A stretch of DNA of 64,000 bases. Source: Phaeodactylum tricornutum CCAP 1055/1 (Eukaryota > Bacillariophyta > Bacillariophyceae > Surirellales > Neidiaceae). Positions 1,651 to 63,918 of this stretch are shown here, one piece after another. The notes under the pieces are model-generated. The model was given only the letters and a program-made list of their open reading frames with translations. It was not told where the DNA came from and made no database searches. The position numbers and the translations under genes are program-made. Position 1 is the first letter of the stretch, and each line of letters opens with the position of its first letter. The DNA is taken from assembly GCF_000150955.2 (NCBI RefSeq), contig NC_011675.1, positions 697,150 through 761,149 on the forward strand, given 5' to 3'.

Positions 1651-2341
1651 GAGGGAGTCCCTCTCTAGCGAATGCTAGCGCTCATAATGATTTCCAGTTA
1701 GCCGAAATCATGTCTGTTTTGCGATTGGGATTGGATACCATCCGACAAGGCCATCCGAGGATACACAACACGGGCACGATCCGATGGAAAGAAGTGAAGC
1801 GTGGTGCGTTCCCGTTCGGGGGAAGCGACCAAGACTTACACTTAACACTTACAAGATGGAGATATTGGATGATTAATTGAAAACAGTCCCGAGTACAAGC
1901 CATGCTACCCACGACGGTTAATATCTTAACCGTATGTGGAGTGGTAGGGAATTGCAGAGAGAAAATCACTATAATCGACACATTGAGAGCTACTCGATCT
2001 TCCCTGCTAATTGACATTTTATCATAGGCAAAATAAATATCGATAACTGAAAAGGGCTTATTCATGATAAAATGCATCTGCTTTTATTTTGCGCGTGCCA
2101 CGACTAGTCTGACTGTGAATGAATGAACGACACAACTCCATTTTCTCACGTGGGGCAGAGTCGGCTCATCCAGGCAGTCCAAATCCTTCCATGTCTGAGT
2201 CCACTCACAGTCTAACCGTTCCACAGCAATCGTCAGCGAAGAGAAAGAAATTGTGGTTAAATCGAGAGCGCTGTTGTCTTGAAAAGGAGAGAATACTGCT
2301 TGAATTCCGAATCAGATAGCGTTGTCTTGCCTGACAACAAT
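1651..2341. other. Intergenic / leader region before the Ser-rich gene
   Basis: No gene recognised. A short open frame from an ATG at 2119 runs to about 2319 in a different frame from the gene that follows; it is Ser-rich and could be a first exon, but I found no convincing splice pair joining the two. Confidence 0.4.
2110..2119 (+). promoter_or_regulatory. TGACTGTGAA word
   Basis: One of the recurrent 9-mers described in the findings; lies 232 bp before the ATG at 2342. Confidence 0.45.
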
Positions 2342-3532
2342 ATGTTTTCGCTCAGATTGCGTAGATTGCTCATTTCTGGCGATAGCGATACTAATAAAGA
2401 GGACAAGCCGACACCCACGACGGAAGATGATTACCGTGTGCAGATTGTCTCAAGTTCGACGCGGAGCAATCGCACTGCCATGAAAAAGGAGTACTCGAGA
2501 CGCGGTAGCACTTCCGGAATATTCGGTCGCGCCAAGGAGCCCCCCTCGAAGCGCACGCCGTCGAGTAAGGAGTTGGCAGTCCTCGCGACGACTGCATCCA
2601 CGGACTCCAAATGCACCACAGAACGTACCCAATCAATATGTTCCATACAACCAGGTCCCGAGAAAATTGTCTCAAAAACACGTTCGCATTGTTCAATGGT
2701 GAACAGTAAACATAATTCTTCTCGAACTAAACAGACTGTGGAGACTTTGGACGTGGATACGCCTTCACCGAGTGTCCATAGCCGCTCTTTACCCAATGGA
2801 CGGAGCGGCCGAAGGAGATCGCTGCTGTCAAACGATACATCATCGTCGAAAACGAGGGAATGGGACCCGGCTATATTCGTAGTTGATTTCGCTGGACAAG
2901 CCAACAAAGCGCCTGCAAATTTGGTATCGCCATCGTGTGCACGCGAATCTCCTTTGTCCACAAACACTCATTATTTTATTCCAGATAGCAATCACGGGCA
3001 ACGGTCTACCTATACATTACCGAAAGAATGCTCCGTACAAGATGGGGGCTTGGAACTGCTGAACGGACGCACCCAGATACCTTTACGACGGCGAAGTTCT
3101 CTCAGTGGCCAAATTCGGATGCCTGCCCTTTTGACTACGTCGATCACCAAAACACCGTGGAATCAAAATCTCTTTACCGTTGACTGTAACTCCATATCTG
3201 ATGATCGAAGCGACGACCACGTTTTATTGATTGAAAACAAGCCAACCAAACAAGGAGAGATTATGCTGGGGGGACGAGATCTTGACGACACGGAAGACCC
3301 CTCTATGCTGTTAAACGCTGATGCTGTGAGTGTCGTTACTGCCAGTACTTGCAGCGATCTAACCATGGGAGATCCTACTATGATCAAGCTTTATGACAAA
3401 AACGGTTGTCTCCGCAAAGATCTGCTCATTGCTATGGAGAATGGTAGACCTACCATGAGAAAACAAGCCGATGCCAAATTTGTGAAGCCCAAGTATATAA
3501 CGTTTCGGCGTAAAGAGCGACTGCTGCTGTAA
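2342..3532 (+). CDS. Ser-rich hypothetical protein
   Basis: A single open frame of 396 codons from the first ATG that fits. The protein is rich in Ser, Thr, Arg and Lys and looks disordered for its first 300 residues, with several basic patches next to serines (for example RRRSSLSG near residue 250), which would suit phosphorylation. The last 80 residues are more ordered and end in a basic tail (FRRKERLLL). I do not recognise a family. The frame stays open 21 codons upstream without another ATG, so an unseen 5' exon is possible. It is flanked by the Copia end on the left and a gap of 660 bp on the right. That it is a real gene is inferred from length and codon-like composition only. Confidence 0.6.
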   Translation: MFSLRLRRLLISGDSDTNKEDKPTPTTEDDYRVQIVSSSTRSNRTAMKKEYSRRGSTSGIFGRAKEPPSKRTPSSKELAVLATTASTDSKCTTERTQSICSIQPGPEKIVSKTRSHCSMVNSKHNSSRTKQTVETLDVDTPSPSVHSRSLPNGRSGRRRSLLSNDTSSSKTREWDPAIFVVDFAGQANKAPANLVSPSCARESPLSTNTHYFIPDSNHGQRSTYTLPKECSVQDGGLELLNGRTQIPLRRRSSLSGQIRMPALLTTSITKTPWNQNLFTVDCNSISDDRSDDHVLLIENKPTKQGEIMLGGRDLDDTEDPSMLLNADAVSVVTASTCSDLTMGDPTMIKLYDKNGCLRKDLLIAMENGRPTMRKQADAKFVKPKYITFRRKERLLL

Positions 3533-4196
3533 ATCTGGAAGAAAAAGGAATTTCTATGGTTGTGGAAGGGGTAGAATTGACACACGAAATGCGTCTTATC
3601 CAGAGTGGTTCTGACTGCTTCCTCTAATATTTACTCATCTATTTTTGCCGCTTAAAAAACAAAAAAGTCTATTACCGATAGTGTTTCCTTTTACTGTTAC
3701 TCAGCCGACAAAATGTCACAAAATCTAGTCAGCTCTATAAAGTAGTGTCGGAGCGTACGCCGATTGGAGCGGACAGGAACACCTCCAATGTTTATCAATT
3801 TTGAACAAATGGAGGTAAAGTCAGCCCAATCTCTGTCGGTATCTGACAGTGAATAGGTCAGTAGAGTCCACTTCACAGCTAAACATTTGAGCTTGGCGAG
3901 CTATCAAATGTGCTAAGGTTACATTAAATCCGTTTACAAGACCAACTCAACCTTTCAGTAATATAAACAGAACCAGCCTCGGCTTGTCCGTCTTCCTGTA
4001 TCACCTCGTAAAGCATTGGTTTTGACGCGCGTGGGCTAGTTCTTTGTCCTTCCAGAATTATGGTGTACATCACTTATCGATATCTACCGTTTATTGTATC
4101 TGGCCCTTCATGACTATGACTGACAGTGAGTTCAAGCAAAAAGTCATTCAGAGTAGCTCTTTCAACCCTATATACAAATGGCAGCCAGCAAAGCAA
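3533..4196. other. Intergenic gap between convergent genes
   Basis: No gene seen. It holds two TGACAGTGA words (3844 and 4121, plus strand) that are not close upstream of any annotated start. Confidence 0.5.
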
Positions 4197-5066
4197 TCAT
4201 GGAAGAAACAAGGAATCGGTTGGGGTTGGTAGTGCATTGCTAGCTTGTTCCAATTGTGATGCCGGCACTTGCGTTAAATACCGATCTAATGCATGAATGA
4301 CTTCTGAAAGAGGATCCAGCAAGTCTTTCGAGCCGTAACTGGCTTGGTTTTGTAGATGGAAGTTGTACTCAGCAAGGAAATTGTCCCATGCAATCCAGGC
4401 GTCGTTGCGTGCACCATACTGACGTGGTTGGCGGGTTGGTAAGTCCTGCTCAATTGAAGCTCGTCCAGGGCCATCAAAGCCCTTAGTGTAGTAAACTAAG
4501 AAAGCGTTCTGGTCGACAAAGCGCTGTTTGTAGGAAACGGGGTCGGAATAGGCGTCAAATAGAGCTTTAAAGGCTCTCTCGTCTTTTGGAACTTCTCGCA
4601 GCGTACTCGCAATATTTACTTCACCCTGAGTGTTCTTTAATTTGCTTTCCACATTCTGCAAGCTGCGTTGAAGCGCAACAATAGGGATCAGCGCTTCCAC
4701 TGTCCCCACTTTTGACCTATCAATACTACCAGACTCCGGGAGATTACGTGCCTGTGTTTCCAAGGAACTGAACCTTATTCCGGAGGATACCAGAATGCTT
4801 GTTAAGAATTGTCTCCTGCTTGTTGGAGTATTCAGAACGTTCCAGCATAAACAAAATGAAAATTCTGTCAGAACGAAAAGTACTACCAATAAAAATCTAT
4901 TGACTGTGAGACCCTTCCCTCTGTGCCGTATTCGTACGGCAGCTGTTATCGGAGGAGTCGCACTATTGCATCTGGTTTGACAAAAGGTGGTCCAAATAGC
5001 CACCCCATTCATTTTCTTTGCAAACAGCCTATTTTGCCTTTGAGTGTTTGTTGGCATAGTGCTCAT
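4197..5066 (-). CDS. Predicted thylakoid-lumen protein with Tat signal
   Basis: 289 codons on the minus strand. The N-terminal part reads as a three-step address: a hydrophobic ER-type segment (NRFLLVVLFVLTEFSFCLCW, about residues 56-75), a short transit-like stretch, then a twin-arginine segment (SRRQFLTSILVSSG, about residues 82-95) with a possible cut after ETQA. That layout is expected for a diatom protein sent by the Tat path to the thylakoid lumen. The mature part is about 190 residues, mainly helical, with a conserved-looking block NAFLVYYTKGFDGPGR. It resembles small plant lumen proteins, but I cannot name the family. The start is uncertain: the ER-type segment is preceded by about 55 residues that look like leader sequence, and a TGACTGTGA word (4901-4909) lies inside them, so transcription may start nearer. 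Confidence 0.65.
   Translation of the reverse strand: MSTMPTNTQRQNRLFAKKMNGVAIWTTFCQTRCNSATPPITAAVRIRHRGKGLTVNRFLLVVLFVLTEFSFCLCWNVLNTPTSRRQFLTSILVSSGIRFSSLETQARNLPESGSIDRSKVGTVEALIPIVALQRSLQNVESKLKNTQGEVNIASTLREVPKDERAFKALFDAYSDPVSYKQRFVDQNAFLVYYTKGFDGPGRASIEQDLPTRQPRQYGARNDAWIAWDNFLAEYNFHLQNQASYGSKDLLDPLSEVIHALDRYLTQVPASQLEQASNALPTPTDSLFLP
4901..4910 (+). promoter_or_regulatory. TGACTGTGAG word inside the putative 5' end of the lumen-protein gene
   Basis: If this word marks gene starts, the N-terminus given for the minus-strand gene is too long. Confidence 0.3.
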
Positions 5067-6569: not shown

Positions 6570-7446
6570 CTAGTTTCTGCTGCTGCCCTTCACTGAGAGT
6601 CCTCAGCACTGTCCTATTCCACAACAAAGAATAGTTCTTGCCCCACAAGGCAAAAAATGCCAATGGGACATGAAGCAACAAACAAGAGAACTTGCCATTC
6701 CCGGAATCGAGGGCGTCGCCCTGGCCACGCTGAATATCAAGCGATCACCAGTGTCGAAATGGCCGTTGTCACTTACAGTTAATGTAAGTGATTTCGTACC
6801 GGAGTTCGAGAAGTCAACACAAAACATCACTCATTCTTCTTCAGTGGAGCCAAAATGTACTACTCACTGTCAATGCTATACATGTGCATGATGTGAAGTT
6901 GACATAGTTTCCGATGTAAGTAGTGAAAGTAATATGGCCAGTTCCAACACTCATTCATACCATATGACTTCGATATATTTACGTTACTGAAATTGCATAG
7001 TGAATTCGCACATTTACGCATTCTTGTAGTCTTCTTACAAAAGTCCTCATGAGATGTCGGAGGATGGGAAGCACAAAAGAAGCTGGCCATCTGACAAAAT
7101 AGGAAAGGAAGCAAAAGCTTGCTTATTTCATGGTCCAGTTCCGGGATTTTCGAGGGTAAATGGGTTCCTGTGTGGCACACTAACACACAGAAATGTGATT
7201 AATATAAACAGAGCCGTCGAAAGATATAAATACCAGTACACTCATTGGTTCGTTCACAGAGGTGCTGGTCGCATGATGTCCACGCTGAAACTTAATGAGG
7301 AATGTTGACAGATTCACGTCCACGGTGGTCGAATTTGAGGAGGCGTGTCCATGCCATTAAGAGCTTCAAAGCTAAATACAAACGGAGATGAGATGCAATC
7401 GCTGCTGCGCGACTACGGTCAATACAATCGAGATTTATGAAGATGC
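6570..7446. other. Intergenic gap, no gene recognised
   Basis: Contains a perfect inverted repeat with 8-bp arms (TCACTTAC ... GTAAGTGA, 6770-6792) and a TCACTGTCA word at 6864-6872. Several short frames here are not convincing. Confidence 0.5.
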
Positions 7447-12414: not shown

Positions 12415-13668
12415 GACACCTGCGACTTGGAAGAACGAACACTGATTTCTTGCTGCTTCGCCGGGTGTATTTTACGTAGCTGCTTTGTCAACACACTATT
12501 TTACCTTTAAGACTGGTAACTTGCGGACGCAAAAAAAGATCGGAGCATAGGATGGTGTAATACCTGTTACCAGCTTTTTCCATGATTGTCCACAATCTCT
12601 GCTGTTCTAGATGCTCATCAAAGGGATCTCGGTACAAGTAGGAATGGCTCAAATCGTTGGTTTCCGAGAAGAGCGCCGAACTGTCGCTTTTCAACAGCAC
12701 AAAAAAGCTGTTGAATAATTAGTAGATCAGTATGAAAAGTAGGTAATTCTTATTCGTACAATTTCTCTGCACAAAGAAAGGTCAGCTTTTGCTACGGGGC
12801 TCTGCGAAAACTTCTACTTTCATTCCATCATCGGATAAAGGGATCTGTTTCACTTGACAGTGAGTCCAAGTTTGATGACATTTGGCAATAGATAACATAT
12901 GCAGAGTCAAAGCTTACCCTCTTGGTATACTTCAATTTGTTGGCAATTCACGTGGCGCTTGGGTTTCTTAGAACAGCTTGGCCCGTGCCTGAGTCAGAGA
13001 GTTTCGGTTTTTTGACCAGTTAAGGCACCTTCAGGGCATATGACAATAGTGGTTTCCTGTTACTTTGGATCAACAAGACCATTCCAAGTGACAAAAGATT
13101 TACCACGAATATAGTCAACACTCTTGTGGTCAGACTGTTGCACAAGTCTTCCCAAGATTGGATTAGGACGGGAGCATAAGTCTGTCAATATCATGTTTGA
13201 AGGAGTTCCATACATTGTTTCAGATTGGGTAAGACAATGAGAGTTCGGCTTGTCTAGCATTGCAAATGGGCTAATGCTAGGGTGCACTTTGGGCCTCATA
13301 AGTAGCAGAACCGGCGGGGTGACTGGCGAAGTAGAATCGCTATCAGTACTTCGTTGCAATCATCCTTTCAACTTGCAAAGGAATCTCGCAAAGGTCCCTT
13401 CTTTTCACCTGATGCACACTTCCATGTTTCAATTACAGTTTTTACTGCTAAAACAACTATAAACCCTGATGGCCTGATGAATGGGCTTTGGTGTTCTCTG
13501 TTTTGTGACGGTTTGTCGCAATTATACAGTTGAGGCGTTTCTGGCTATGAAGATTTCGACTCATTCGACTAATTGTGATCGAAGCCTTCACTGTCAATCT
13601 TACTGCAAGTCCGAAAGTGAACAAGTCTGTTCAAAGACGATCTTCCAACGGCGTCTATCAATAGGAGG
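12415..13668. other. Intergenic stretch of 1.25 kb
   Basis: No gene supported. A minus-strand frame at 13060-13359 (99 codons) is open but has no family I know. A TGACAGTGA word sits at 12855 and another, reversed, at 13588. Confidence 0.4.
13588..13596 (-). promoter_or_regulatory. TGACAGTGA word (reversed)
   Basis: 81 bp before the ATG at 13669 and 132 bp before the in-frame ATG at 13720. Confidence 0.4.
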
Positions 13669-15092: not shown

Positions 15093-15103
15093 TTGACAGT
15101 GAG
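15093..15103 (+). promoter_or_regulatory. TTGACAGTGAG word
   Basis: 60 bp before the ATG at 15153; it falls inside the longer open frame, which argues that the longer frame is leader and not protein. Confidence 0.45.
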
Positions 15104-16867: not shown

Positions 16868-17393
16868 TGCTCTTTCAAGTCCTGGTAAAATGTTGTATAA
16901 TAACTGATTTTTTTATTTCTCTATCTCTAAATGAAGCAAATGCAAAGAATGTACAGAGTATCGAGCACAGGCGGGACCACCGGAAAGCTAGAAAAAGGAT
17001 TGGAAATGGAAGCTGGGTGGTTTTTAGGATGGGAGGTGTCACTGTCAACGCCATTTTGTGTCGTCAGTGTAGGTTAGGGTGCGTAAAGAAACCCTATCCA
17101 ATTAGTAGATTAGGGGCTTTGCTGGACGTCCGGATGGGAGCGACATCGCGCCAAACGGCAGAAAGTTCTGTACGGTGAGGCGCGAAACAGACGACCGGCG
17201 TCCCTTTGGAGCGCTAGCCGGACACCTTTGCATCTCGTCCGATCGACGCAAGCCGAACAATGGGCAAAACCCGTGACATACTCGCACGCACACTTTGCTT
17301 GGACCTTACCGGCTCCTTACTTCGAACAAACGCCTTTGGTTCGTCTCCTCCACTATTCTAGAGTGTTGCTCCCGTGTACTCGCCTCCGCAAGA
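16868..17393. other. Upstream region of the polymerase alpha B-subunit gene
   Basis: No gene seen. A TCACTGTCA word lies at 17039-17047, 355 bp before the start codon. Confidence 0.5.
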
Positions 17394-23975: not shown

Positions 23976-25059
23976 GCTGATTGCCTAATGTCAGACCCAC
24001 AGCAACGGACGTTTCCTGTTCATCAAAATACTCTGTTCTTATTGTTAAGCTGACATCGCCCTTCACTAATAAAGTCCATCAGTTATTCAAGCAAAGGGCA
24101 GTGCTTGTGAATTTGTGACTTCATTCTCATGCTGAAAGTTACCAACTGGAGTGGCGAACGATTTTCGTCCGCGGTCCGTGACTTGCTTATTGTTTGTGCT
24201 TACATATGTCTGTCATATGTTTTAGAAGGTTTAGAATGACCTGATTTGTGTCTTACCGGGAATAAGTGCAGTCATGTCATCGATGTGTCCTATTTGATAA
24301 TGTGGCGACGGCATCAGGTCTGATTGGTCAGTGAAACAGCACAACGGATTGAGCTCCCCTTAAATGTAAGCACAACCTTAGAAGAATCCAGCCACTATTA
24401 GTAGCCCTCCAAGTAGAGCCCTATCACAGTAAATTAAAATCATCAACCATGTAATGTAGACTCAGAGGGTAGCCAACAATCTTTACACAAGCCACAAAGG
24501 AAATAGTCTTGAGTTGGTATAGTAAAACATATACAATGGTAAAAACCTATGCTTTTAGTTGTACAGAGTACTATCAAAGTACAACTAACTGTAAATGCTA
24601 TGGACTATATTCAAATTGTGTGACTGACGGTAAGAGGTGATGATGCTTCCCAAACACCCATTCACATTACAATTATAAGTGCAAGAGCTACCACCATCAG
24701 ACCACAGTGCAACAGTTCTATGGTTTTTGCCAAGAAACCACTGACTATCAGACCCGACCCTGCAGTGTAGTCATGTACGCTGTTTTTGCATCAATAACTA
24801 AAAGTCTATATCTACATTCATCTTTCTCATCCTTCTTGGAAGATTTGTCTTCAATCTCTCAGGGTGTGCATCACTGACAAGCATGATGTAGTAGCCATTG
24901 CATAAAAAATAATTTACATCAGATAAATAAAAATATCATTTATTCAAACATGTGCAAAACCAAGTCACTACAATATCTTTCAGAGAATCCTATGAAGTAC
25001 AAATAAATATTCCCCCAAGCTACAAATGATGACAATTTTTGCCTAATTAATGTAAAAAC
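23976..25059. other. A/T-rich stretch, no gene recognised
   Basis: Over 1 kb with no open frame of note; it borders the decayed aminopeptidase gene and may hold older debris, but I could not identify any. Confidence 0.45.
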
Positions 25060-25197: not shown

Positions 25198-25207
25198 TGA
25201 CTGTGAG
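25198..25207 (+). promoter_or_regulatory. TGACTGTGAG word in former coding sequence
   Basis: Lies in the 3' part of the aminopeptidase pseudogene, so presumably not a gene-start signal here. Confidence 0.2.
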
Positions 25208-25884
25208 TGTCAACAGCCCTTGACAGTAAAAAGCAATGCATAATTAGGGTTAAAGAAGGCCAAGACAGTCAGTGGCGCTTAGTGGAAGAATGAGGGTTTA
25301 TGATTTCTGACCTCTGCCATTGGGAAGCAGTATATGCAGCACGGTAAAACCCAGTCTGGTCAATGTAGTTTGAACAATTTGCCAGATCTAGTCCATTTGT
25401 AAATTTTGGTGGAAAGAGAATTTATCTTGTCACCATTTGGCCCATTGATGATCCTGGTCCTAGAAGTTTGTCAAAGCCTTCCACATGGGCAGTAACAGTA
25501 ATTGGCCATGTTGTACATTTTTGTTTGTCTGGACCAGAGACCAACATGTGGGAAATATTGATTGATCCGTCTTCCAAAAGTAGAAGTATTGGATTTCCTA
25601 TTTTCAGTGTCAAAGGAGCCATAAATTTGATGCAGGGATGCCCAGCACTGTTTCCAGAGCGGCCCACAGGTTGTTGATTGCGGCATTCCCAAATTCGATT
25701 TTTTTCAGACATGTTTGCATTCCTTCCATAAAGTTGTCCTTGCCAATCAGCAACAAAATCATGCCAAAAATTGACGCAGCTTTGGCATATAAAATAGCGC
25801 CAAAAATCTCGTAAATGTTGTTTGGATGCATTCTTCACCTCTACCGGGTGGCTTGATTCCATGGAGTCTGTCATGGTACACTAT

Positions 25885-26762
25885 TGTTACGGTACGCTAC
25901 CTTGCGGCATGTCCCTCGGACAGCTCCCACTTGATAAGGAAAGTGTAAGTGTGAGCCAATCCGATGGACGCAGCGGTTACGCGTCCCATATGGAGTTTGT
26001 GTCGGCCTTATTGCGCAAATATACCGTATTTGAGTTACCCTGTTGTGGTTTACCTCCTTGCGACATGTCTTGTGGAAATTATTCACTAAACGCGGATGTC
26101 TCAAGTGTGAGTCAAAACTATGCACATGGAGTTAAGGAGGCACGCACAGAAATGATACCAAAGCCTTGTTCCGTGGCCACGTGGACTCACAATAATCGAA
26201 GCGTTTGTACAATTGCTATGTTTCCGGAGCCGCATGTGCTTAGTCTCCACTTGTCGGTTTACACGACCAAAATGGACTGGGATATAATTGGAACATCGAA
26301 AATACGATTGAAGCAATAAAGGGGCTATCACAAGACACATGGTGGGACTGAAGAAGAACAGCTACTCACCATAGGTGTTGTGCATGGGACTCATAGTTCT
26401 GGAGGTATATATACATGTGGGAGAAAGATTGTCTATTGAGATTATGGAAGTTGGTGAAGATCAATGATGCGCTGGCACTTTGTGGGATTGTTCACTGGAC
26501 TGAACAACAGATTGACTAGTTTGTAGCATGTAATTTTCCACTCATTGTTTTATAAGTTCATTGATCCAAATATTGCATTATAGCATAGGTCCTTGCATCC
26601 GCTGTCTAACCCGTGGGGAGCGTCGTCAGTGAGTGAGTTTTACAGTCCCTAAGCTTGCTTAGGTGTATTGCAGGTTGTTCGTCATAACGCCCACCTTTGT
26701 TTACCACACACTGTCATAACAGCGATCCGTCCTCGGTTGTGCTTTGGTAGTACTCCGTAACA
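25885..26762 (+). repeat. 5' LTR of the young element
   Basis: 878 bp, ends form the inverted pair TGTTACGG/CCGTAACA. Directly repeated at 29188. Confidence 0.9.
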
Positions 26763-29622: not shown

Positions 29623-30065
29623 AGGGGCTATCACAAGACACATGGTGGGACTGAAGAAGAACAGCTACTCACCATAGGTGTTGTGCATGGGACTCATAGT
29701 TCTGGAGGTATATATACATGTGGGAGAAAGATTGTCTATTGAGATTATGGAAGTTGGTGAAGATCAATGATGCGCTGGCACTTTGTGGGATTGTTCACTG
29801 GACTGAACAACAGATTGACTAGTTTGTAGCATGTAATTTTCCACTCATTGTTTTAGAAATTCTTTGATCCAAATATTGCATTATAGCATAGGTCCTTGCA
29901 TCCGCTGTCTAACCCGTGGGGAGCGTCGTCAGCAAGTGAGTTTTACAGTCCCTAAGCTTGCTTAGGTGTATCGCAGGTCGTTCGTCATAACGCCCACCTT
30001 TGTTTACCACACACTGTCATAACAGCGATCCGTCCTCGGTTGTGCTTTGGTAGTACTCCGTAACA
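29188..30065 (+). repeat. 3' LTR of the young element
   Basis: 878 bp; preceded by the purine-rich tract GATGGGGAG, the expected plus-strand primer position. Its differences from the 5' LTR all fall in the last third. Confidence 0.9.
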
Positions 30066-31188
30066 ACTATTTTGCAGCGTGTCCCTTGGATGTATGCCAG
30101 TTAGTATGGAAAACGCAATTGTGAGCCAATCCAATGGGCGCGGCATTTAGGTGTCACATGTGGAGTTTGTGTTGGCCTTGTTGTGCAAATTCACCATATT
30201 TGCATTACATATGGAAGTCATTTGTATCCTGGAGTCATGAATACAGGATACATACAAATGGCAGTTAGGAAAAGATACTAAACCAGTCTCACAAATCACA
30301 TGACAAGCAAGGAGCAATATTCATTACTCACCATGGGATTCTGTATGGGATTTATATTTACAGGTTTTATGCACATGTGGGAAGATTCAAGACTAGCTAT
30401 GTTTTTGGTAAGACTGCTCACTGGATTGAACAGACTTTGCAAGATCAACTAGTTTATAGAATGTAATCTTTTACTCATTGTTATAGAAATTCTTTGATCC
30501 AAATATTGCATAATAGCATAGGTCCTTGTATCCACTGTCTAACCCGTAGGTAGCATTGTCAGCAAGTGCGTTTAACAGTCCCTAGGTGTGCTTAGGTGTA
30601 TTGCAGGTTGTTTGTCATAATGCCCAACCTGTGCTTACCACGCACTGTCAAACAGTGTTACTGTCCTACATACGTACATTGGTTGTACTATGTGAGAGTC
30701 CAACTGCATTGCCAGTCCATAAACAAATTGTACAAACTAAGTTTATGTCTCCCATTGAGCATTCTGGGATTCAGAAAGATTTTGATTAGATTCTTCTGTT
30801 ATACACAAGTTTAGCTCTATGGTGTATATACACCAACAAATTCCATGTATTGGGCAATGCCCTCCTTGAGCCATAATTGTCTCCAGAATTCTGTGGTTGC
30901 AAGGTTGCCAAACCACACGTGCGCAAGCTCATGACAGTATGTCTGAGCAATCCCCCATTTCAAACTTTCAGAAGATAAATTTGGTTTCATCAGAATTTTG
31001 CTTCCTTGTACCTATGATGCAGCTGCAGTTTACCATGGCACCTGCAGCAAAGTCAGGAATTGCAAGGAGGTTGCTTTTATGGAGTGGATAGGGAATCTGA
31101 CAAAGATTTTGATAGAGATCAAGGATCTGAGTCACCACATCCAGACAGAATTGACCTTGCTTGGTCTTGCAGTCACAGTGTAAACTGT

Positions 31189-31602: not shown

Positions 31603-32290
31603 AACTGTAGTTAAGACACCATTGTGCATTTGTGAAACTCCATCAAATAGACCTACAGCCAGAGCAACAAGATACGTTGACATTACAGGTGTTGTCTGAA
31701 AGGTGACCATCTTGACATGTTTCCCTTCTTTGTATTCTGTATGAACTGTCACTGTCAGAGTGTTGCTAATGCTTTGCAACTCCAATGGAACCATCGCAGT
31801 AATGTTGCTTTTAGAGCGGGTTTGTTGAAACAAGGAAAAGCATGTTGAGCATTAATTGGTTCAAACTGTGTAGTAGCCATGATGTGAGTCTTTCTATCTA
31901 GTTCTACATAGGTTGGTCTGTAGAGCCCACACATTTGTTCATCCAAAATGCCATAGAAATTAATCTCCATAGTACATTTTTCGCCTTCCTTTCAACTGTC
32001 AATTGTGACAAACACAATTTTACAATGTTGCTTGTACATATTGTAACTCAATTTGGTAAATTCAACACAATAATTTTTGTTTGCTAGATACAATGTTGCT
32101 TTGACAAACTGTAGTTGGAAGGAATTCACCATGACACTCACAGCCCTGTAAGTCTTTCTAGTATGGTCCCTTGAATCAAGATGCTCCCTTTAAAGCTGGA
32201 ATTGCTGAAGTTCAATTGACTATACATCAAGTCGTAATGCAACGGCTTTAATTTCGCAGGTAAATGGGCCTCTTTCTAAAAGTTAGTGCA

Positions 32291-32727
32291 GCTTTTTGAC
32301 ATGACAACTGCTGATCCCAAATCAAACATTTGAAGCACTAAAGATTGCTGAAGGGTTGCAGGAGCAGTTATAGAGAGGTGACAGAGGTACTATTTTTGTG
32401 AATCCAGTCTATTATAAGTATCCTGCCAGATGAAATTTCAGAAAGCATCAAAGCCTAGAGTAAAGAGGTTTTAGGGTTTCCTACGCCAGATTTGAAAAGG
32501 CAATTTGAACCTGATATCATTTTGCAACAAGTAATTTGAAATATCGTTGTCGTTCACAGTCAATGTTGCATCATGTAAGTCTGAAATATCAGTATTGTCC
32601 CCGTCTCGACTTGACACAGTCGACAAAAGCGCACCGTGGGCATTGACCTCTTTGGCTTTTTGACATTATCCGACGCATTGTCGACGACACAAATTATTTG
32701 TCCTTTATCGATTCCAATCCAGTCAGC
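32291..32727. other. Gap between the pseudogene and the SpoU gene
   Basis: Possibly former promoter and 5' end of the aminopeptidase gene; nothing else recognised. Confidence 0.45.
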
Positions 32728-33312: not shown

Positions 33313-33796
33313 TGGTATCTCATATTCTGTATCCAGTTTATTGGCTGCATGGAAGACAAGAGCTCTCTAGAGAGCAAAGTGCTTTCAATGGAGGAAACAA
33401 CCTAGCTAACTGACGGTGAATAACTGCGATATAATACAAGGTTTTTCCTTGGTTTGTACACAATCAGACTATGTCTGACACTCTGAGAGCTTTCCGAAAT
33501 CGAGCTATGTCTGAATATGTGTGTCCGACTATAAGTCGGTAGTATAAGGAAACACAGCCTGATTCGCGTTTCATTCCGTTTGCGTCATCGCTTGCCATCC
33601 GAAGCGAATTTTCGTACCATACCGCGAACGCGCGAACGAAAACAAGTGCACTCCTCCCATCTCTGCAAGTCTGTCGTCTGCTGACTTTCGCGCTCTCGTA
33701 CATCAACACAGACTACAGTAGATGTATTACAGCATACTGACTGTGAAGATAATTTGAGGAAGCCTCTATTTTAGGAAGTCTGAACTGTCGAGTCAC
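33313..33796. other. Intergenic gap
   Basis: An 81-codon minus-strand frame (33464-33709) is present but has no features of a protein family. Confidence 0.45.
33738..33747 (+). promoter_or_regulatory. TGACTGTGAA word
   Basis: 59 bp before the start codon at 33797. Confidence 0.45.
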
Positions 33797-35682: not shown

Positions 35683-36282
35683 AGTGGATAATGCAGTTAC
35701 AGCAAACACTTCGTGATAGCAAAGATCTGATTCGGGTGATGATAAAGTTTGGATGCAGATGCTTGGTGAGCATGTTTGTCTCACATCTGGACATGGGTGT
35801 CGCGCGATTTCGTCTTACATGAGGAAATTTTCTCTTCTCACGGGAAATCGATCCCTTCACGTGGGGTATCAAATCGCATCTTTCTGTTAACAGTAAAAGA
35901 TTGATGGATCGGCGGGCGCAGAACATGCTGAAGGAACGAAATTCGGATTCTAACAAAACAGCATCGACAAAGAAATCAAGACATGTCTCGAGCTAGTCGC
36001 CCGTTAATTAGAAATAGTGACGTGGATTTCCTTTTTTGGCCTGAACGAACAACGAAAGGAAGGAAAGGATGACGCAAGCCGCCAAGTCATGCGTTTTGGC
36101 CTTCCTGGCGAGAACAATTACCCCGATTGACTGTGAGACCGCATGCGACGGCTGATCTTGACAGCACCCAGCCATTCCAAAAAAAAAACACGTGAGGGGT
36201 TCGGCTTGCCACAATCAACTACTACCACCTTCCCGCACGCCACACAATCTAGATCAACAAGCTTTATTTGCTGCACCGAATC
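35683..36282. other. Divergent intergenic region
   Basis: Between two outward-facing starts. A run of eleven A at about 36178-36190 and one TGACTGTGAG word are the only features seen. Confidence 0.5.
36128..36137 (+). promoter_or_regulatory. TGACTGTGAG word
   Basis: 155 bp before the ATG at 36283. Confidence 0.45.
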
Positions 36283-36700: not shown

Positions 36701-37353
36701 GCATGTTACGCCGTCGATGAGCTCTCTACCATGCAAAATAAGACATTTCCTGTCACGCCGTCTCAATGCGAATGCCTTTTACCAATAGAACAGAATCAAC
36801 TTTTTACTCTAACCTGCAACTGTTCTCTTTGGACCAACCTGCGTCAGTCGACGTCTCTCATCAAAACGTTCAACAAATAAGCTATTAGTAGATGCACAAA
36901 TATTCGTATGTTTACAGGGCTACAATCTCGACATCAATTGGTTGCATGTAATGTAGGAACCGGTGCGGAATCCTCACTGGAGTGTCAGCAGGAATCCTTG
37001 CTTTACGGTTGCCAATAACATTCGCGTGTGCACGCGATAAGGCCTAAAGTGTTTTGTACCCATTTCGAATCGCGGTTCTTCATTGTCGAGGTATGGAATT
37101 TCGACGAGGTAAATTATAATGGGCCATTCGTATTCACTGTCAGCTGACAGGGAGACTGTGAACGTGTCCGTCCTTGGCTCGTGTGGATACTTTGACGAGT
37201 AAACATAAGGTAACGGTACTAGCGTTACTGCTAACCGTAAAACCAAAGGAAATCGGCTCTCATGTAAAGGGAAGAACATTACTGTTCGGTAAAGACCAAT
37301 GGACTATCGTGTTCAATCAACACAAATTGTCTACAACAGAAAGTCCATTGACC
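36701..37353. other. Intergenic gap before the ataxin-10 gene
   Basis: No gene seen. A dense patch at 37134-37160 holds TCACTGTCAG, an overlapping CAGCTG palindrome and GACTGTGAAC. Confidence 0.5.
37134..37143 (-). promoter_or_regulatory. CTGACAGTGA word (reversed) in a palindromic patch
   Basis: About 210 bp before the ATG at 37354; the neighbour GACTGTGAA on the plus strand is a near copy. Confidence 0.4.
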
Positions 37354-40325: not shown

Positions 40326-40335
40326 TCACTGTCAG
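40326..40335 (-). promoter_or_regulatory. CTGACAGTGA word
   Basis: 74 bp before the epimerase start and in the same direction as that gene. It overlaps a second half-site (CAGTGACTG). Confidence 0.45.
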
Positions 40336-40670
40336 TGACTGCGAATCGGGCGAGTTCCTTGAGAACCCCAAGCAAGCGCGAAAAGTGAACAACTCAGTAT
40401 AATTAGGTCATAAACCCGGACGGCGTATTTTGTTGTCCTGTTCGATTATGTAATTTAACCGTCCAATTTACGAATCCTATAGCACACTAGACTTCTAGCG
40501 TTAATACGGTTATTTAGTATATCGTACCTATCGATAATTTGAATAAATAAGCTTATTACTCATACAAAAATGTTTTACAGTTATATACATATATGCTCTC
40601 CCTGCCCTCGCCGTCGAAATTTGACAGGCTGTCGGCTTTCGGGAACAGCAAAACAATCTCGAGTTGGCGT

Positions 40671-40680
40671 TCACTGTCAC
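40671..40680 (-). promoter_or_regulatory. GTGACAGTGA word (reversed)
   Basis: 57 bp before the protease ATG at 40737. Confidence 0.45.
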
Positions 40681-40736
40681 CGGCAGGTCTCGTTTCCGGT
40701 GTTTGCCCACTGTCTGCATTGCTGCAGACTGTCACG

Positions 40737-43333
40737 ATGGCGGCGGAACATAGCAATGACAGCTGTTTTACGGTCGACATGAGCGATCAGAGTCAAGATC
40801 TTGAGGATTTTCTCAATGACGATGAAGGATCATCGCAGGAATCGATGTCTGTGACGAACACGCACAGCGTGTCCAGTCCGGAACCCCGTGTCGCTTCCCG
40901 TAACGCCGCCACTCTGGCAGCGTTTGATCCGTTCAGTCCGCAACGGCAGAAGACGACTCTTGCTTCGCAAACGAAGTCATTAGTAGATGAAGAAGACGAA
41001 ATTTCGGTTTCCACCACGCAGTCTGTAGATCCAGGCACTCGGGATCTGGCCCAACTCTCTGCTGGAAAAGGACTGCTCGTCTCTCCCAAGCAGAACGCTC
41101 GTATTCCGGGTGCTGCGGGGTTTCTGGAAATGGAAGAAGAACCCCCACGAGATCTCTCCCGTCCCTCGCATCCGCAACAGCCGTCACCGTACGATCCCAT
41201 TCGAACGTCTTCGGGTTTGCTCTTGACCCATCGCAAAACGCTACCCGTTTCCCAGAATGCTCGAAACGAACACAGCGCCCGTCCTAGTGGTGCCTCTCCG
41301 TTACCGGATTCGTACCGATCTCCACCTGGTGAAGACCACGACAATAACGACAAAGCATACCGCGGAAATGGATCTTTCAGTCTTTTGCCTTCACCCGGAA
41401 TACGGCGGGCCTTACATCGGGAGCAATTGGAAGTGGAACATCCCTACAGCAGCAATCCGTACGTGACCGCCGAAGCGTATCCACACCGCTCGCTGTTCCT
41501 AGCCCAAACCCAGCGCATCTTGTCCTATATGAGATTGTCGGTTGTTTTGTCCGCCATTGTACTTATCCTCGGTACCGCCGTGGTCGTAGCGCACATGAGG
41601 CGGGCCGGATCTGGATCTTTCGTGGATGAGGCTTTGACTTCTAGCCAACAAGACTATCAGCCATCCCAAGAATCACTGCAAGTGGTTTCTTGGGATGAAA
41701 ACTTTGATCCTAAGCAAGCTATGAATGCATTGAAACCTGAGCTGGTTATCCTCAAACCGTTTCCACAACATCAACAGCAATATATCGATCAAACTGCCTA
41801 CGAGACGGAACCTTTGCCACTGGAGGAACAAAGGCCTCCGTCGCGGGGTATGCGACACCCGTTTCGCGGCTTGCGGGAAAGGTTTGAAACTTGGGCCCTC
41901 GACCATCGGAAAAGCTACCACACGGAGATCGAGAAGCAGAAGCGGTTTGAAATTTGGGCCGAAAATCATCGCCGCACATTAGAAAAAAACGAACGCCATG
42001 GCCCGTGCCGTTTAACTGAACAACCAGTCTTTGGTTCCAATCGCTTTCAAGACTTGACGGACGAGGAGTTTCAATCCAGCTACCTCACCGGATACTCCAG
42101 CTCGAATGCTAGGCGTCTTTCGTTTTCCAAAGATAGTGGAGTGCTTGACCCATCAAAAAATATGAAACGCCATCCCGAAGTACACCGACGTGTTGCTATG
42201 CAGCGCGAAGAAACAGGTAATATGGCACGGGGATCCAAGTGGCAGAATTGCGAATGGTGGAACGTGTCATGTGGTCTACGCTTTATCTTTGAGAACTACT
42301 TTTACGGATTCGGTCACACAATGGAACCTAAATACGACGAAAGCTCGTACCCGAAAGGTAATTCAAATGAGATCACCCTGTGCTTTTCCAATTCTCGTTA
42401 TCTAATATACCACGTCTCCTTCTGAAGCTGTGGATTGGCGCGGTATTGGTGCGGTCACTAGTGTGCATTCGCAAGGAGACTGTGGTGCCTGCTGGGCCAT
42501 TACGGCTGTAGAAACAGTAGAGTCAGCTGTCTTTTTGGCTACTGGAACTCTATATGATTTATCGGAAGCAGAAGTCACCCTTTGTCAAGAGAATTGTGAC
42601 ATGTGCTACGGTGGATGGCCGCAAGACGCATTTGACTATATCATGGATCATGATGGCCTGCCGTTGGAAAGTGATTTGTCGTACAACGGAAGCCTCCTGC
42701 TTAAACTATCACAAGCCAAGGTTGGTGAGAGCGACGAAATGAAGTAAGTTGGTAAAGACGAGGGCATAAACAGCGACTGGTATTCGTTCTTACCTACTGC
42801 TTATTTCTTTGTGCAGCGAAAGTTCAGTTGAATCATACATGAACGATTGGTGCCCAGCTAACGGGTCCAATACATTGAAGCGGTACGGACAGATTGAAGG
42901 CTATGGTTATGCCACATCTCGATGTGTTTGTTACACGGATGGATCTGGTTGCGACTGCGATTCACAGGATGAAGGTGTGGCGGTCAGAAATCTCGCTACC
43001 TATGGTCCAGCAGTCGTCTGCGTAGATGCTTCGACTTGGAAAGATTACAGCGGTGGCATCATAACTTCCGAATCTGGTTGCAGTCAAAAGTTTCTAGACG
43101 TAAATCATTGCGTTCAAGCTGTCGGCTATGCCTATACCTCTTCCGGAGGGGGCAGCGAAAGCGAGAATGGAAGCCACGATAGTGGTAGTCAAGACGACTC
43201 CGGATCCCGTCAAGGCTACTGGATTGTTCGGAATCAATGGAGCTCGTACTGGGGTATGTCGGGCTATGCATGGGTTGCCATGGGAGAAAACACATGTGGG
43301 ATCCTAAACGATTTCGTTCAAGCTTACGCATAA
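40737..43333 (+). CDS. Membrane-anchored papain-family (C1A) cysteine protease
   Basis: Exons 40737-42357, 42428-42743 and 42817-43333 (817 codons). Residues 1-260 are Ser-rich, acidic and likely cytosolic. One membrane segment (VVLSAIVLILGTAVVVA, near 267-285) makes it a type II protein. Then come an I29 inhibitor prodomain (FETWALDHRKSYHTEIEKQKRF in two parts, near 375-460) and the peptidase domain starting VDWRG: oxyanion Gln and catalytic Cys in SQGDCGACW (Cys near 561), His in VNHCVQAVGY (near 742) and Asn in RNQWSSYWG (near 784). All catalytic residues are present. A Ser/Gly/Asp-rich insertion sits between His and Asn. It probably acts in the vacuole/lysosome path or at the cell surface; an anchored form with a large cytosolic tail is not the common layout. 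Confidence 0.92.
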
Positions 43334-44517: not shown

Positions 44518-45192
44518 GGAAGCTCTCCGTCCTGACAGCCTCGTGGCCTCTTTGGTCTATTGATCATCTATGTACGAGTACAGATATGTTTTTCGTGTGT
44601 GCTCGACGTTACATGGCGAGCCATTGGTGGAGAGATCTTGGTCCTGGCCCCTGTTTTTACTTGTTTATGTTAGGTTTTGGTGCGGCACGGCTTATCTGTG
44701 GTCTTCTTGCTCTTGGTTTGCGCTCGGCGAAACCTGATACTCATTTCTCCTACAAATGTAAAAAGCAAAATCGTGTCCTCTAACTATAAGTATATTTCAA
44801 CACCTAAAACGAAAAGACATACGAAAGCCTTTCCGATGTGCCCCAATATAGATAGATGTGTTGTCGTCCCCGAACAGCGGCAGTGAATACAGCACGCCAA
44901 CTTTACTGTTGGCGCCCACTACAGTCAGTCAATCGGCAATCTTGTCGTGCTCAACTTCCGGCACTTCGGAGGACAGCGTGGCCAATATGTCCAAAAAGCG
45001 AAGTATGGACAGTTTTTGCGGTTCGGATTTGCAAATATCTCCAAAAACGCTTCCCCTCTTTCTGTTTCGACCTTCGTTAACAGTAAGATTCGTAGCCGGA
45101 TTTACAATACCACAAAAACTACCTTCTTCCTCTAGAATTTTATCAAGCAACGACGACCACATAATTTCGATTTTCACTACTTCTCTTTTGTC
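44518..45192. other. Divergent region before flavohemoglobin
   Basis: Several frames of 60-112 codons overlap; none has a recognisable product. Confidence 0.5.
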
Positions 45193-46473: not shown

Positions 46474-46878
46474 ATGAATGGGCTGATAGAAGCTATTGGC
46501 AGGAATGATCAAACGTAAAAAGAATAGAATACTATCAGAACTTCTCCTTACCCAAACCTAACTGGAATTGTCCTCCTGCATCCTTGCCGTTGTTCTGTCG
46601 TGCAAAACATTGGCTTTCTCATTCCGTGCTGACTGTGAGTTGAAATTAGATCTGTTTTTCTCGCTTCGTGCTTTACCAGTAAAGAAGCACCAAACTGTAT
46701 CCCCGATCGAGCTTGTTTACTTGCTGCTGCACTTTGTTAGTGCCCGAGAAACTTCCTGCTAAAATGTGCGTATCAAATGACATGCTCTAATTTGATCTGG
46801 GATATGACCTTCTTGCGTCTCGAGAAAAAATTCTGTGACAAAGTTTGACAGCTTACAATTCCTTATTCGCGATCTACG
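46474..46878. other. Gap between convergent genes
   Basis: One TGACTGTGAG word at 46630; it is at the 3' side of both neighbours, so it has no obvious target. Confidence 0.45.
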
Positions 46879-49365: not shown

Positions 49366-49958
49366 ACAACGTTTATGTGGCCTCTCAATTGCTAGGACCG
49401 TACGAAAAGAGTAGCTGACTGTAAATGCAAGCTTACTATTCATTAAACGAAACTATCGAAAGCAGTACAAAGGCTTGTTCCTTCTTTCAAGCTAGAGGTG
49501 ATACCCAATCCTCTAAAGTCTCGACTGCAATACCACGAACGGACCAAAGTTGAGAATACATCGTATGTGTCGACTTGGTCCCCAATCGCGAAAGGGTCCA
49601 TAGCCTGCCGGCGTGACTCGTGCCAGCGAGCTGGTGAAGCCGAAATGTAAGTACGCCGACTGTGACCGTGCCCGAATCAAAAATAATTTTGGGGCTAGCT
49701 AATTGGCCAGCCTGTTCCCAATGCCGGCGAAATAAACGTACAAGCCTCTTTTCATATTTACTTACTGTTAGGTATTGCAATCCGAATCTCATACTCAGCG
49801 ACTCACATAAAAATACAGGCACCCCACGAAATTGAGTATCCTATGCCCCAACCCGCCGCTGGACAGTGACTACCTTCCTTTTTCAGGTCGACACCAGTGC
49901 ACTATCAAATCTACACTCGCACTAGGTTTTGTTGGAAACATCCCACAACAACAACGAC
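49366..49958. other. Gap between AIM24 copies B and C
   Basis: A 111-codon minus-strand frame (49487-49822) is open but has no recognisable product; I do not call it a gene. Confidence 0.45.
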
Positions 49959-53005: not shown

Positions 53006-53173
53006 GGTACGGTGACCCCGACACGCATTTCCGTCGTCAGGAACGCTCGTTTGGGTCTCGTTGTGGTATCGCAAAGGACCTAACAGTAAGATGAATGGGG
53101 AACCATCATCGTATGAGGGCGACAATTAGGCGTCTGCCGCAAGAACAATACACGTGGAAGAGATTAAACAGTC

Positions 53174-53183
53174 TGACTGTGAC
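53174..53183 (+). promoter_or_regulatory. TGACTGTGAC word
   Basis: 169 bp upstream of the minus-strand Hsp70-like start. Confidence 0.4.
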
Positions 53184-53623
53184 TTACCTATTCGAAAACA
53201 ATCTGTCGTACCGACACAGGGGATTTTCAACAGGTAGCAAGGCAATTACCGCTTAGAGGTTAACAGGTAGCTTTTCTAGCTAGCTCTAGATACTCTAATT
53301 AGAGCGCCGATAATGCACGACCGTGTGTATATGTGTGACACGCATTCATTTTTCTCCACACCGACGCTACGCGAGAACGAGGGTAGATTCGGTCCGTGTC
53401 GAAAAAGTAGCTTCCGGAATACCGTGTCTACCGTGGCGCTCACTGTCAGTCAGACCCTCCCTGACTTTCTTGGCAATCTACCGGCCGAATCTTACAGTTA
53501 GTCACTCTCAGGTATTGGATGGGAATCGGGACCGACAGAGTTTGGGTGGGGTAGAACTGTCGGGAGTGACCTCGAGACGGAGTTGTTTGTAACACACACA
53601 TAGAGAGAGACGACTCGACAAAT

Positions 53624-53633
53624 TTGACAGTGA
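53624..53633 (+). promoter_or_regulatory. TTGACAGTGA word
   Basis: 93 bp before the ATG at 53726, in the gene's direction. Confidence 0.45.
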
Positions 53634-56952: not shown

Positions 56953-57717
56953 TACTTTATAAATAGAAATATCTTGAATATAACCCTCTGGACACCGCTG
57001 TGAATACCGCTTAGCAGACTACCAGCTTTCCTTGTCAAACATCCCAAAATCTTAGCGTGAAGGTTTACAGCATTGATTGGCACCACATCATAATCCTATC
57101 CTTGTAGGCACTATTTTCCCCCGAAGATTACAAGAGTTGACTGTGAAAACTCCGGTTTGTTCTGGTCTTTCGAAAAATGGTTGACAGTAAGTGACTCGTC
57201 AATAACCGAGACGTAACACACAGATTCTCTATTATTTCTTCTTTACGTTTGATCTACTCTTTTGATAGAGCTAGCGAATGCGTGTTATTGTGTGTTCTAT
57301 ATTTTACTTTTCACTAGTTCTGTATGCTCCCGAACCTCGCTGTCTGATTGCTGGTCTTCTGCAAGTACATCGATTCCTCCGATTGTTACATTTTTTAGTT
57401 CTTACATTCAGTCCGTTCCCTCCTTTCATCGAATGATCATATCCTCAAGTCCCATCGAAAATACTATTCTGCCGAAGGTGAGCTCGCTCTTTTCTAAGCA
57501 CTTCATGCGGCATGTCACTTTCTTCCGGACATGTCACACTTGCCTGCCAATCTTGATATACAAGGAAGATACAGATGTAACTAATGTAACTGTCACTGTA
57601 ACATACCCTGATACAGTCCCGAAAAAGCAGTCCATACATGTACGACGGGAACATGGTCCAAGTTCGCTCGCATCCCAAAGGTCTGTACATAAAGCCCTTT
57701 CCTTCAGTGGATTCGGT
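56953..57717. other. Gap upstream of the Sen34 gene, mostly an LTR-like repeat
   Basis: The repeat takes up 424 of 765 bp. The Sen34 frame is open through part of the repeat by chance. Confidence 0.55.
57135..57558. repeat. Solo-LTR-like repeat, copy 2 (upstream of Sen34)
   Basis: Fossil repeat related along its length to 31189-31602, same orientation and clearly diverged. TACAAG occurs on both sides (57129-57134 and 57559-57564), a candidate target repeat. A TGACTGTGAA word lies at its left end (57138-57147). It ends 159 bp before the Sen34 ATG, so it could shape that promoter. Confidence 0.65.
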
Positions 57718-58974: not shown

Positions 58975-59058
58975 GCGCATATAAAAAATAAATTGCGCGG
59001 AGGGTCCTAATGATGGTAGAAGCAGCTATAGTTCTTTACAAGGGACAGACACCGTTTC

Positions 59059-60890: not shown

Positions 60891-60943
60891 CTGTCAGACT
60901 GCCCTTTCCACATGGATTAGGGTTCTGGCACTCCATTTTTTGT

Positions 60944-62250: not shown

Positions 62251-62780
62251 GGTCGACATGCAGAGCGAATATGGCTGTCGATGACGTCGAAAGAGGATAG
62301 GCGGGTAGTTGCGCTTGCTGCTCGGCGAAATCTTTTAGTCGAGCGAATCCATATGGCCATTCCGTCGGTCCATGCAACCGTTTGTCGGACGAGCACCAAA
62401 CGCAAGACGATTCGATACACAGTCTGAAACGCAGACAGACGCACACCACGGGAACACCGCACAAAACCAAAAACCTAGCCCCCTTATTGGATCATCAATG
62501 CCGACAGCAACATCTTTCACAGCGCTGCAGATTAATTGGAGCTGTAACATGCTGTATTCTGAAACCGTGAAAATCTCCATACTGACTGTGAATGCCGATT
62601 GCGTACCGCCACTTACAATTTGTAATCCAATCTATTGATTTTGTGCAAACCTAAAACTAGATATTTTACAGTTCTAATGTCCAGTCACTTCCTGCAGATT
62701 GCGACGCCCTGTTAATTTTGTTCCATCATTAGACATCAATCCTACCAATTTTAGACGACGCTCTCGGCAAGGAATACACC
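62251..62780. other. Divergent region between Rieske and U2A' genes
   Basis: Short overlapping frames only; no gene supported. Confidence 0.5.
62583..62592 (+). promoter_or_regulatory. TGACTGTGAA word
   Basis: 189 bp before the U2A' start codon. Confidence 0.4.
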
Positions 62781-63609
62781 ATGCGGATTAGCGCAGAAAC
62801 CATACAGCAGGCCGAGCAGCGTGTGAATCCCGACGGTGAGCGCGAGCTTGTGCTTCGGGAGCTAGCGATTCCTTTCATCGAGAATATGGGCGCTGCTCGG
62901 GATGATTACGACGCTTGGGACTTGACCAACAATCGAATAGTGCGCCTGGAAAATTTTCCACGGGTACGAAGGCTCGCGACACTTCACTGCTCGGGGAACA
63001 ACATTGAAAGTGTGGACGCCATAAATATTTCCAAAAATGCAAATTGCATACGACATCTCTACATGAGTGACAACAACATTGCGTCTCTGGGGGAACTGGT
63101 TAATATCGGTGAAGCGTGTGCAGGCCTCGAGCATTTATGTTTAGTTGGGAATGCCGTAACTCGTAAGTGGAGTATGGTATGACTGTGAATAGTGTCTTGG
63201 CGAATCATGGCTTCTTACCAGACTTGCTTCTACACCAGGGCAACAACATTACCGACTGTTTGCTATTGCCAAGATTCCATCTCTTAAAGTTTTAGATTTT
63301 CGAAAAATTAAGCCAGGTGAGCGCGAGAAAGCTGCCAAGTTTGCTATCAGCACGGCTGGTGCTGCACTAGAGGAGGATGTGCAAAAGTCTTTGCCCAAAA
63401 CTTTTGTTCCTGGTGAAGCATTGGATGGCGGGCGGTCGTTTACTCACAGATTCACGGCGGCTGAAAAGGAAAAGATTAGAGCTATGCTTGATAATGCTAT
63501 GTCGGCCAAAGACGTAGAAGCAATCGAAAATGCCGTCAGCAACGGTGTTCTACCGGCAGGACTCGTAGTAGAAGAGAACCAGCCAGATTCGAAACGAAGG
63601 AAGATATAA
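62781..63609 (+). CDS. SNRPA1: U2 snRNP A' protein
   Basis: Exons 62781-63162 and 63239-63609 (250 codons, as in human U2A', 255; donor gtaagt, acceptor ccag). The protein is a leucine-rich-repeat partner of U2B'' in the U2 snRNP of the spliceosome. Seen: MRISAETIQQAEQRVNP (family opening), ELVLRELAIPFIENMGAARDDYDAWDLTNNRI in parts, LHCSGNNIESVD, LYMSDNNIASLGEL, LEHLCLVGNAVTR at the splice and QHYRLFAIAKIPSLKVLDFRKIKPGER just after it. The C-terminal helix region ends in KRRKI. The single intron (76 bp) contains a TGACTGTGAA word at 63180. Confidence 0.93.
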
Positions 63610-63918
63610 ATTTACACTGAAATTCAGTTTTTCGGAATTGCTATACTTTATTCTAATTTATAGAAAATGGGCAAGGTGAAAATGGTTGGTGCGGTGTGAT
63701 AAAGTTTGTTTCTGCTCTCGGTAGGTATGGATAACAATCCATTGTCGTAGCTGCAACGTTCACTGTCGGTTGATCGCTCGTATTTTGAGCGCACAAATGG
63801 GTATGTGTGCTCATTCGGTACCGATTCTGCATTTTGGTCGTGTCAGCCGAACATGACGAAAACGCTGTGACTTGCTATGCAGTTGCATTTACATTTACTG
63901 TTTGCATGACACAGCAAT
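63610..63918. other. Gap upstream of the last partial gene
   Basis: Contains TTCACTGTCGG (63759-63769), one base off the recurrent word, 150 bp before the next ATG. Confidence 0.45.

Follow-up and report, generated by a model that had tools for sequence, protein, structure and literature searches.

The stretch of Phaeodactylum tricornutum CCAP 1055/1 DNA analysed here (64,000 nt, C7:697150-761149; hereafter the window) raises the question of why a nine-base word, TGACWGTGA, recurs in it so often, and whether, as an earlier note proposed, it marks gene starts. TGACWGTGA is present in 24 exact copies in the window, against a mean of 1.59 and a maximum of 6 in 100 dinucleotide shuffles, and its two forms rank top of the window 9-mers with at least six counts (13 against 0.85 and 11 against 0.78 expected under an order-3 Markov model, both strands). 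The genome searched (27,450,724 bases, 88 contigs) contained 5,675 matches, compared with 497 for the reversed pattern used as a control, in the genome-wide count that the note had suggested. Each of the 23 positions listed there was correct, and one further copy, TGACTGTGA at 32554 on the minus strand, completes the 24. The note had seen TGACTGTGA on the plus strand alone. Its split of 10 plus to 1 minus in the window looks like chance, because the same form divides 10 to 10 in a contiguous 200 kb block of C1 (L009-L028) and the two forms together divide 2,848 forward to 2,827 reverse across the genome. The repeat is confirmed, and is larger than the earlier note stated, its reader having seen part of it. 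TTACWGTTA belongs to the same family, with 10 window copies, and TTACWGTTA/TAACWGTAA is enriched much as TGACWGTGA in the window plus the C1 block (264 kb; hereafter the sample).

The full rule is T-N-A-C-W-G-T-N-A, in which both N are the same base. When all 16 pairs of T-x-A-C-W-G-T-y-A were counted in the sample, the matched pairs AA, CC, GG and TT occurred 14-31 times per form against 0.7-2.3 expected, and unmatched pairs 1-7 times against 0.5-2.5. Genome-wide, the matched GG/CC class accounts for the 5,675 matches given above, and the matched TT/AA class gave 3,240 (reversed control 811). Four unmatched classes were counted across the genome, namely TGACWGTCA (349 places, reversed control 706), TCACWGTGA (300, control 179), TGACWGTAA (1,000, control 550) and TAACWGTGA (574, control 555); the remaining unmatched classes were counted in the sample alone. 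In 102 kb of non-coding DNA, a blind scan with centre lengths of 1-5 bases and direct-repeat lengths of 2-5 yielded a single signal with z >5: 3-base repeats around CAG/CTG (140 against 74.7, z 7.6), counted apart from simple repeats and from the same sites in another register (ACAG/ACTG, 2-base repeats). TGA, TCA, TAA and TTA made up 80 of these 140, and the matched-to-unmatched ratio of XNY-CWG-XNY was 6.9 for TNA and at most 1.8 for other outer letters. Simple or tandem repeats were rejected as a general cause, as the signal of CAG/CTG centres between TNA flanks is distinct from that of true simple repeats. Other centres were weak, CCG giving 14 matched and 8 unmatched cases in non-coding DNA.

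The surroundings of the word were counted at 125 distinct sites from 321 kb of loci (250 strand-symmetrised counts), with a tandem array in L032 trimmed. The first base outside the word is T or C in 196 of the 250 counts, the second is A in 115 and the third is weakly C (82), with little beyond; the 88 sites of the window and C1 block show the same flanks. The overall shape is approximately AY-TNA-CWG-TNA-RT, with flanks palindromic for two to three bases. The whole word is likewise palindromic except at the two N, where complements would be required but the bases are identical; W is near-equally T and A (65 and 60 of the 125 sites). At N, the G+C to A+T ratio is 1.75 across the genome (5,675/3,240) and 1.86 at 80 non-coding sample sites, compared with 1.74 at the N of non-coding YTNAR after masking of the sites (n=1,102), 1.75 at AYTNART (n=55) and 1.45 at all TNA. 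N is not chosen; its composition is that of random YTNAR targets. As a separate observation, the bases at -3 and +3 outside the word weakly tend to be identical (94 of 250 counts against about 60 expected by hand, 125 sites). The L032 array (L032:3994-5018) consists of units of about 165 bp; TGACTGTGA stands at a corresponding position in six of them, and these six copies were mostly or wholly excluded from the composition and flank counts.

Our favoured reading, held at even odds, is that each copy is a scar left by a cut-and-paste mobile element that the genome has probably since lost. Such an element would insert at a palindromic target like AYTNART and duplicate its centre, TNA, as a 3-bp target-site duplication; excision would then leave three terminal bases, C-W-G, between the two TNA copies. 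The overhangs would mismatch at the middle base, where repair could keep either A or T, and the product would be TNA-CWG-TNA with the same N on both sides. The scars would subsequently decay by mutation, and selection would remove them from coding DNA. A TNA duplication with CWG between its copies would therefore account for three features together, namely identical N, a centre that is self-complementary with W free, and flanks that are palindromic, and would also give N the composition of random targets (1.75 against 1.74 in YTNAR). Copying is favoured because it makes two bases identical whichever they are, whereas the contacts of a symmetric dimer give complementary or independent positions. 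Two marks of a cut-and-paste excision footprint are present: identical bases flanking the putative scar, as in a target duplication, and a CWG that is self-complementary apart from the mismatch base. A second scar type, TNA-CA-TNA, was considered and rejected, since TTACATTA is high (21 against 3.6) and TAACATAA somewhat so (7 against 2.4), but the GG and CC forms are not. For the same reason TTACATTA/TAATGTAA (17 against 3.1 expected in the window plus L009-L028) is apparently a separate word.

Two known types of system bear comparison. PIF/Harbinger - IS5-type elements make a 3-bp target duplication at a palindromic target (CWCTTAGWG for maize PIF), and their excision is usually precise. In the Tc1/mariner transposon Sleeping Beauty, W arises from mismatch repair and the target preference is palindromic, A-Y..R-T. 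In the parts covered of two papers, the consensus footprints of Sleeping Beauty are TACAGTA and TACTGTA (PMC4378557), and the footprint stems from terminal bases remaining after cleavage (PMC8151067). The word resembles this TA-CWG-TA arrangement in having an apparent target duplication on both sides of C-W-G with W either base, and shares the palindromic A-Y..R-T preference; it differs in having a 3-bp TNA with free N rather than a 2-bp TA, and no matching element was found here. A TA scar of Tc1/mariner type was rejected, as TACWGTA is not enriched (12 and 12 against 15.4). The 3-bp duplication and palindromic target are shared with PIF/Harbinger; the differences are the usually precise excision of those elements and the lack of a PF13359 match in this genome. 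A survey, in the parts covered, names for P. tricornutum two families of Mutator-like elements and two types of uncharacterised transposase, and reports Harbinger elements from the diatom Thalassiosira pseudonana (PMC2806351).

The mismatch spectrum was taken from 291 kb with 105 sites and eight core words counted on both strands. The core words gave 210 counts against 14-17 expected, and their single-mismatch neighbours 570 against 322-354, with an excess at every position (ratios 1.3-2.8); two-mismatch words gave 3,766 against 3,340-3,451. The single-step excess is about as large as the intact excess, as would be expected of relics around a tenth diverged (hand estimate). Ten sites were followed between paralogous stretches 87-89% alike (L031/L036, L032/C19, L038/L040): three were intact in both, five carried one or two substitutions, one had a 1-bp gap and one a same-length replacement. 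Three intact of ten compares with about 3.3 expected under neutrality (by hand). Left out of this count were L031/L037 (L037 being a near copy of L036), L036/L037, and L036 or L037 against L038. Four of five sites are intact in both L036 and L037 (97%), one of them adjoining a 9-bp tandem gap, and the fifth has two substitutions; against L038 (75-76%), one site has one substitution and the others align with gaps of 4, 4, 10 or 13, none of 6.

A repeat family from L032 has 21 near-full copies at at least 95%, none of which is more than 2 bases longer than the query (from coordinates only); their lengths therefore leave no room for a new 6-bp scar, unless balanced by loss. A multi-copy test of a pair of stretches 6,041 bp apart (L033, L034) matched those two copies only. 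If the element were still active, about four of the ten paralogous sites should be younger than the duplications (hand estimate, steady state), so its activity must have ended before them. The paralogue data fit scars older than the duplications and an element since lost, a fit rather than a proof. Concerning the repeat itself, C45 and C53 share at least 4.7 kb of identical sequence, the opening 810 bp of which (L032:5200-6009, C45) are the repeat with 21 near-full copies; several of these sit near contig starts or ends.

Location relative to genes was assessed with our own open reading frame (ORF) predictions by hexamer score (136 ORFs in the sample), models without introns or mapped transcription starts. 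Of the 88 copies in the sample, 82 are non-coding. The 6 coding copies are about what chance would give (6 in 162 kb, 0.037 per kb, against 4-5 expected, scaled by hand), and a coding effect was rejected as the cause on this ground. Divergent gaps hold 30 copies in 33.0 kb (0.91 per kb), tandem gaps 42 in 44.1 kb (0.95) and convergent 3'-3' gaps 9 in 21.7 kb (0.41), with size classes summed by hand and one more copy beyond the outermost ORFs.

Within 300 bp upstream of 91 well-scored ORFs lie 31 of the 82 non-coding copies, against 19.1 expected if copies were spread evenly over non-coding DNA (binomial p ~0.002), and within 300 bp downstream 11 against 13.9, close to the non-coding average. 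Upstream density rises from 0.67 per kb (first 50 bp) to 1.5-1.9 (50-300 bp) and then falls to 0.7-1.0; downstream it is mostly 0.3-0.8, with one bin at 1.84. A copy lies within 400 bp upstream of 33 of the 91 ORFs. Distances from copy to ORF start in the sample show no sharp peak in a range of 13 to 1,977 bp, and orientation relative to the gene is not fixed. What survives of the idea that the word marks gene starts is this mild, diffuse upstream excess; there is no fixed distance to ORF starts, and 58 of the 91 ORFs have no copy within 400 bp upstream. Window ORFs near copies carry globin/FAD, HSP70, epimerase, tRNA endonuclease, cathepsin-propeptide, Duc1 and Atx10 domains; in a domain scan of ten such ORFs, three had no family and no common theme was seen. 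The copies in the window are as follows.

2110..2118, plus strand, TGACTGTGA
3691..3699, plus strand, TTACTGTTA
3844..3852, plus strand, TGACAGTGA
4121..4129, plus strand, TGACAGTGA
4901..4909, plus strand, TGACTGTGA
6773..6781, plus strand, TTACAGTTA
6864..6872, minus strand, TGACAGTGA
12855..12863, plus strand, TGACAGTGA
13588..13596, minus strand, TGACAGTGA
15094..15102, plus strand, TGACAGTGA, 51 bp before ORF 15153
17039..17047, minus strand, TGACAGTGA
24586..24594, minus strand, TTACAGTTA
25198..25206, plus strand, TGACTGTGA
25493..25501, minus strand, TTACTGTTA
31749..31757, minus strand, TGACAGTGA
32554..32562, minus strand, TGACTGTGA, absent from the earlier list
33738..33746, plus strand, TGACTGTGA, 51 bp before ORF 33797
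35888..35896, minus strand, TTACTGTTA
36128..36136, plus strand, TGACTGTGA
37134..37142, minus strand, TGACAGTGA
40326..40334, minus strand, TGACAGTGA, between divergent ORFs
40575..40583, plus strand, TTACAGTTA
40671..40679, minus strand, TGACAGTGA, inside predicted ORF 40593-42425 near its start; upstream if the start is 40737, as first proposed
45078..45086, minus strand, TTACTGTTA, before globin-domain ORF 45193
46630..46638, plus strand, TGACTGTGA
49762..49770, plus strand, TTACTGTTA
53081..53089, minus strand, TTACTGTTA, 76 bp before an HSP70-like ORF on the minus strand
53174..53182, plus strand, TGACTGTGA
53440..53448, minus strand, TGACAGTGA
53492..53500, plus strand, TTACAGTTA
53625..53633, plus strand, TGACAGTGA
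57138..57146, plus strand, TGACTGTGA
62583..62591, plus strand, TGACTGTGA
63180..63188, plus strand, TGACTGTGA

Other repeats in the window include AGCATAGGT (6 against 0.26 expected, both strands) and GACATGTC (14 against 2.7 expected; a palindrome, both-strand count). An 878-bp stretch occurs twice, at 25885-26762 and 29188-30065 (3.3 kb apart, 99.2% identical), and a third, diverged piece lies nearby at 30442-30655.

A number of results weigh against an origin of the copies as excision scars. The sample, about 1% of the genome, contained no candidate element, defined as TNACWG...CWGTNA with the same N at both ends, inverted repeats matching at 12 of 16 or 9 of 10 bases and a span of at most 6 kb. 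PF13359 (DDE_Tnp_4, Harbinger type) had no match in the genome, its control matching in 1 of 14 genomes. The ten paralogous sites included none with 6-bp presence or absence, that is, empty and filled alleles, and an 87% repeat copy on C5, 6 bases longer than most of its family and 7 longer than the query, shows no scar in its letters, the difference being the sum of several gaps. Copies are not clearly in excess in coding DNA, even though inserting 6 bp would keep the frame. Among single-mismatch forms the ratio of transition excess to transversion excess is only about 0.6 (by hand), low for neutral decay. Decay also predicts equal numbers of TGACWGTAA (1,000) and TAACWGTGA (574) unless their backgrounds differ; the Markov backgrounds differ likewise (~374 and ~208, hand-scaled), but the reversed controls do not (550 and 555). 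Lastly, a regulatory site would likewise produce the enrichment seen in the 300 bp upstream of ORFs (31 against 19.1).

Other transposase families were sought in the genome. PF02992 had no match, and neither did its controls. PF13358 (DDE_3, Tc1 type) had four matches, three of them in open frames of 605-659 amino acids without stops, and no link between these genes and the putative scars was shown. Inverted-repeat ends were absent from the 1.3 kb viewed around one DDE_3 gene (L045, L046). The DDE_3 transposase genes are located as follows.

C6:467515
C6:715962
C12:741165
C3:1432260

The chief rival of the scar reading, which we regard as possible but doubtful, is that the word is bound by a protein: a putative general regulatory factor, abundant but undescribed, that would act upstream of many genes. 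The non-coding location and the 1.6-fold excess within 300 bp upstream suit such a factor, as does one site upstream of an ORF that two paralogous stretches, about 13% diverged, have both preserved together with its flanks. Retention between paralogues is nevertheless not in excess (3 of 10 against about 3.3), distance and orientation are not fixed, and N is merely of background composition. Independent contacts cannot force two positions to be identical. A site for a symmetric dimer, in which the two would be complementary, was rejected because such palindromes are too few (349 and 300 places). The matched N would need, for example, two sister proteins binding head to tail, one at TGA-CWG-TGA and one at TTA-CWG-TTA, an arrangement that does not predict the palindromic centre and flanks. 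Motif discovery has also favoured a regulatory role: in the parts covered of a 2016 study (PMC4915529), MEME returned the same word from LHCX 5' flanks and introns, and it was proposed there as a possible cis-element. This MOTIF 1, TCA[CT][AT]GTCA, which covers the TCACWGTCA form of the word, is listed five times in non-coding sequence of LHCX1, 2 and 3 of P. tricornutum, and none of that study's motifs is said to correspond to a known factor site. The diatom CO2/cAMP-responsive elements tabulated in the same paper (TGACGT, ACGTCA, TGACGC) share TGAC with the word, but differ in spacing and lack a matched variable base. One form of the word is therefore already in print; the matched-base rule and the genome-wide number do not appear in the parts of that paper covered. 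Nor was there any account of either among the matches listed in searches of mostly open-access literature on the word, on diatom promoters, motifs and factors, and on diatom or 3-bp-duplication footprints; term searches of PMC4686930, PMC10967249 and PMC12113381, in the parts covered, gave nothing on the word.

Duplication without a transposon would also account for the matched N, for instance through a nuclease cutting YTNAR followed by templated insertion of CWG during repair, or through slippage of a TNACWG hexamer, and a few tandem forms, TNACWGTNACWGTNA, do exist (C1:130872/130878, 930988/930994 and 1544336/1544342). We judge this unlikely, as blunt fill-in predicts TNATNA, the matched forms of which are hardly above expectation, and slippage would extend the repeat, yet the flanks are Y and R rather than G and C. 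The earlier note's suggestion of a core-promoter, initiator-near or 5' untranslated region element draws on copies within 100 bp of several ORF starts and on the density of 1.5-1.9 per kb at 50-300 bp upstream. It is not supported, because there is no sharp distance to ORF starts, orientation is free, copies occur in 3'-3' gaps and the first 50 bp are unenriched; with 58 of 91 ORFs also lacking a copy within 400 bp upstream, a core-promoter or initiator-near element seems to us very improbable.

Returning to excision scars, we speculate, with rather less conviction than we attach to the scars themselves, that the most enriched 9-base family other than simple repeats (in the ranking of the sample) is the fossil record of one vanished element, which hopped without amplifying. 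It would have left about 8,000 scars that are still intact, with TNA duplicated and its middle base free, and copies of the element itself would be few or absent; biologists, and perhaps the cell, would since have taken some of the scars for promoter elements. If the copies are protein-binding sites, obligate identity at two positions would be a very odd recognition rule, pointing to a major undescribed regulator. If they are scars, the word found by motif finders in diatom promoters would be a relic rather than regulatory code, and thousands of past jumps would be recorded in a single genome, offering a map of insertion preference and perhaps a clock.

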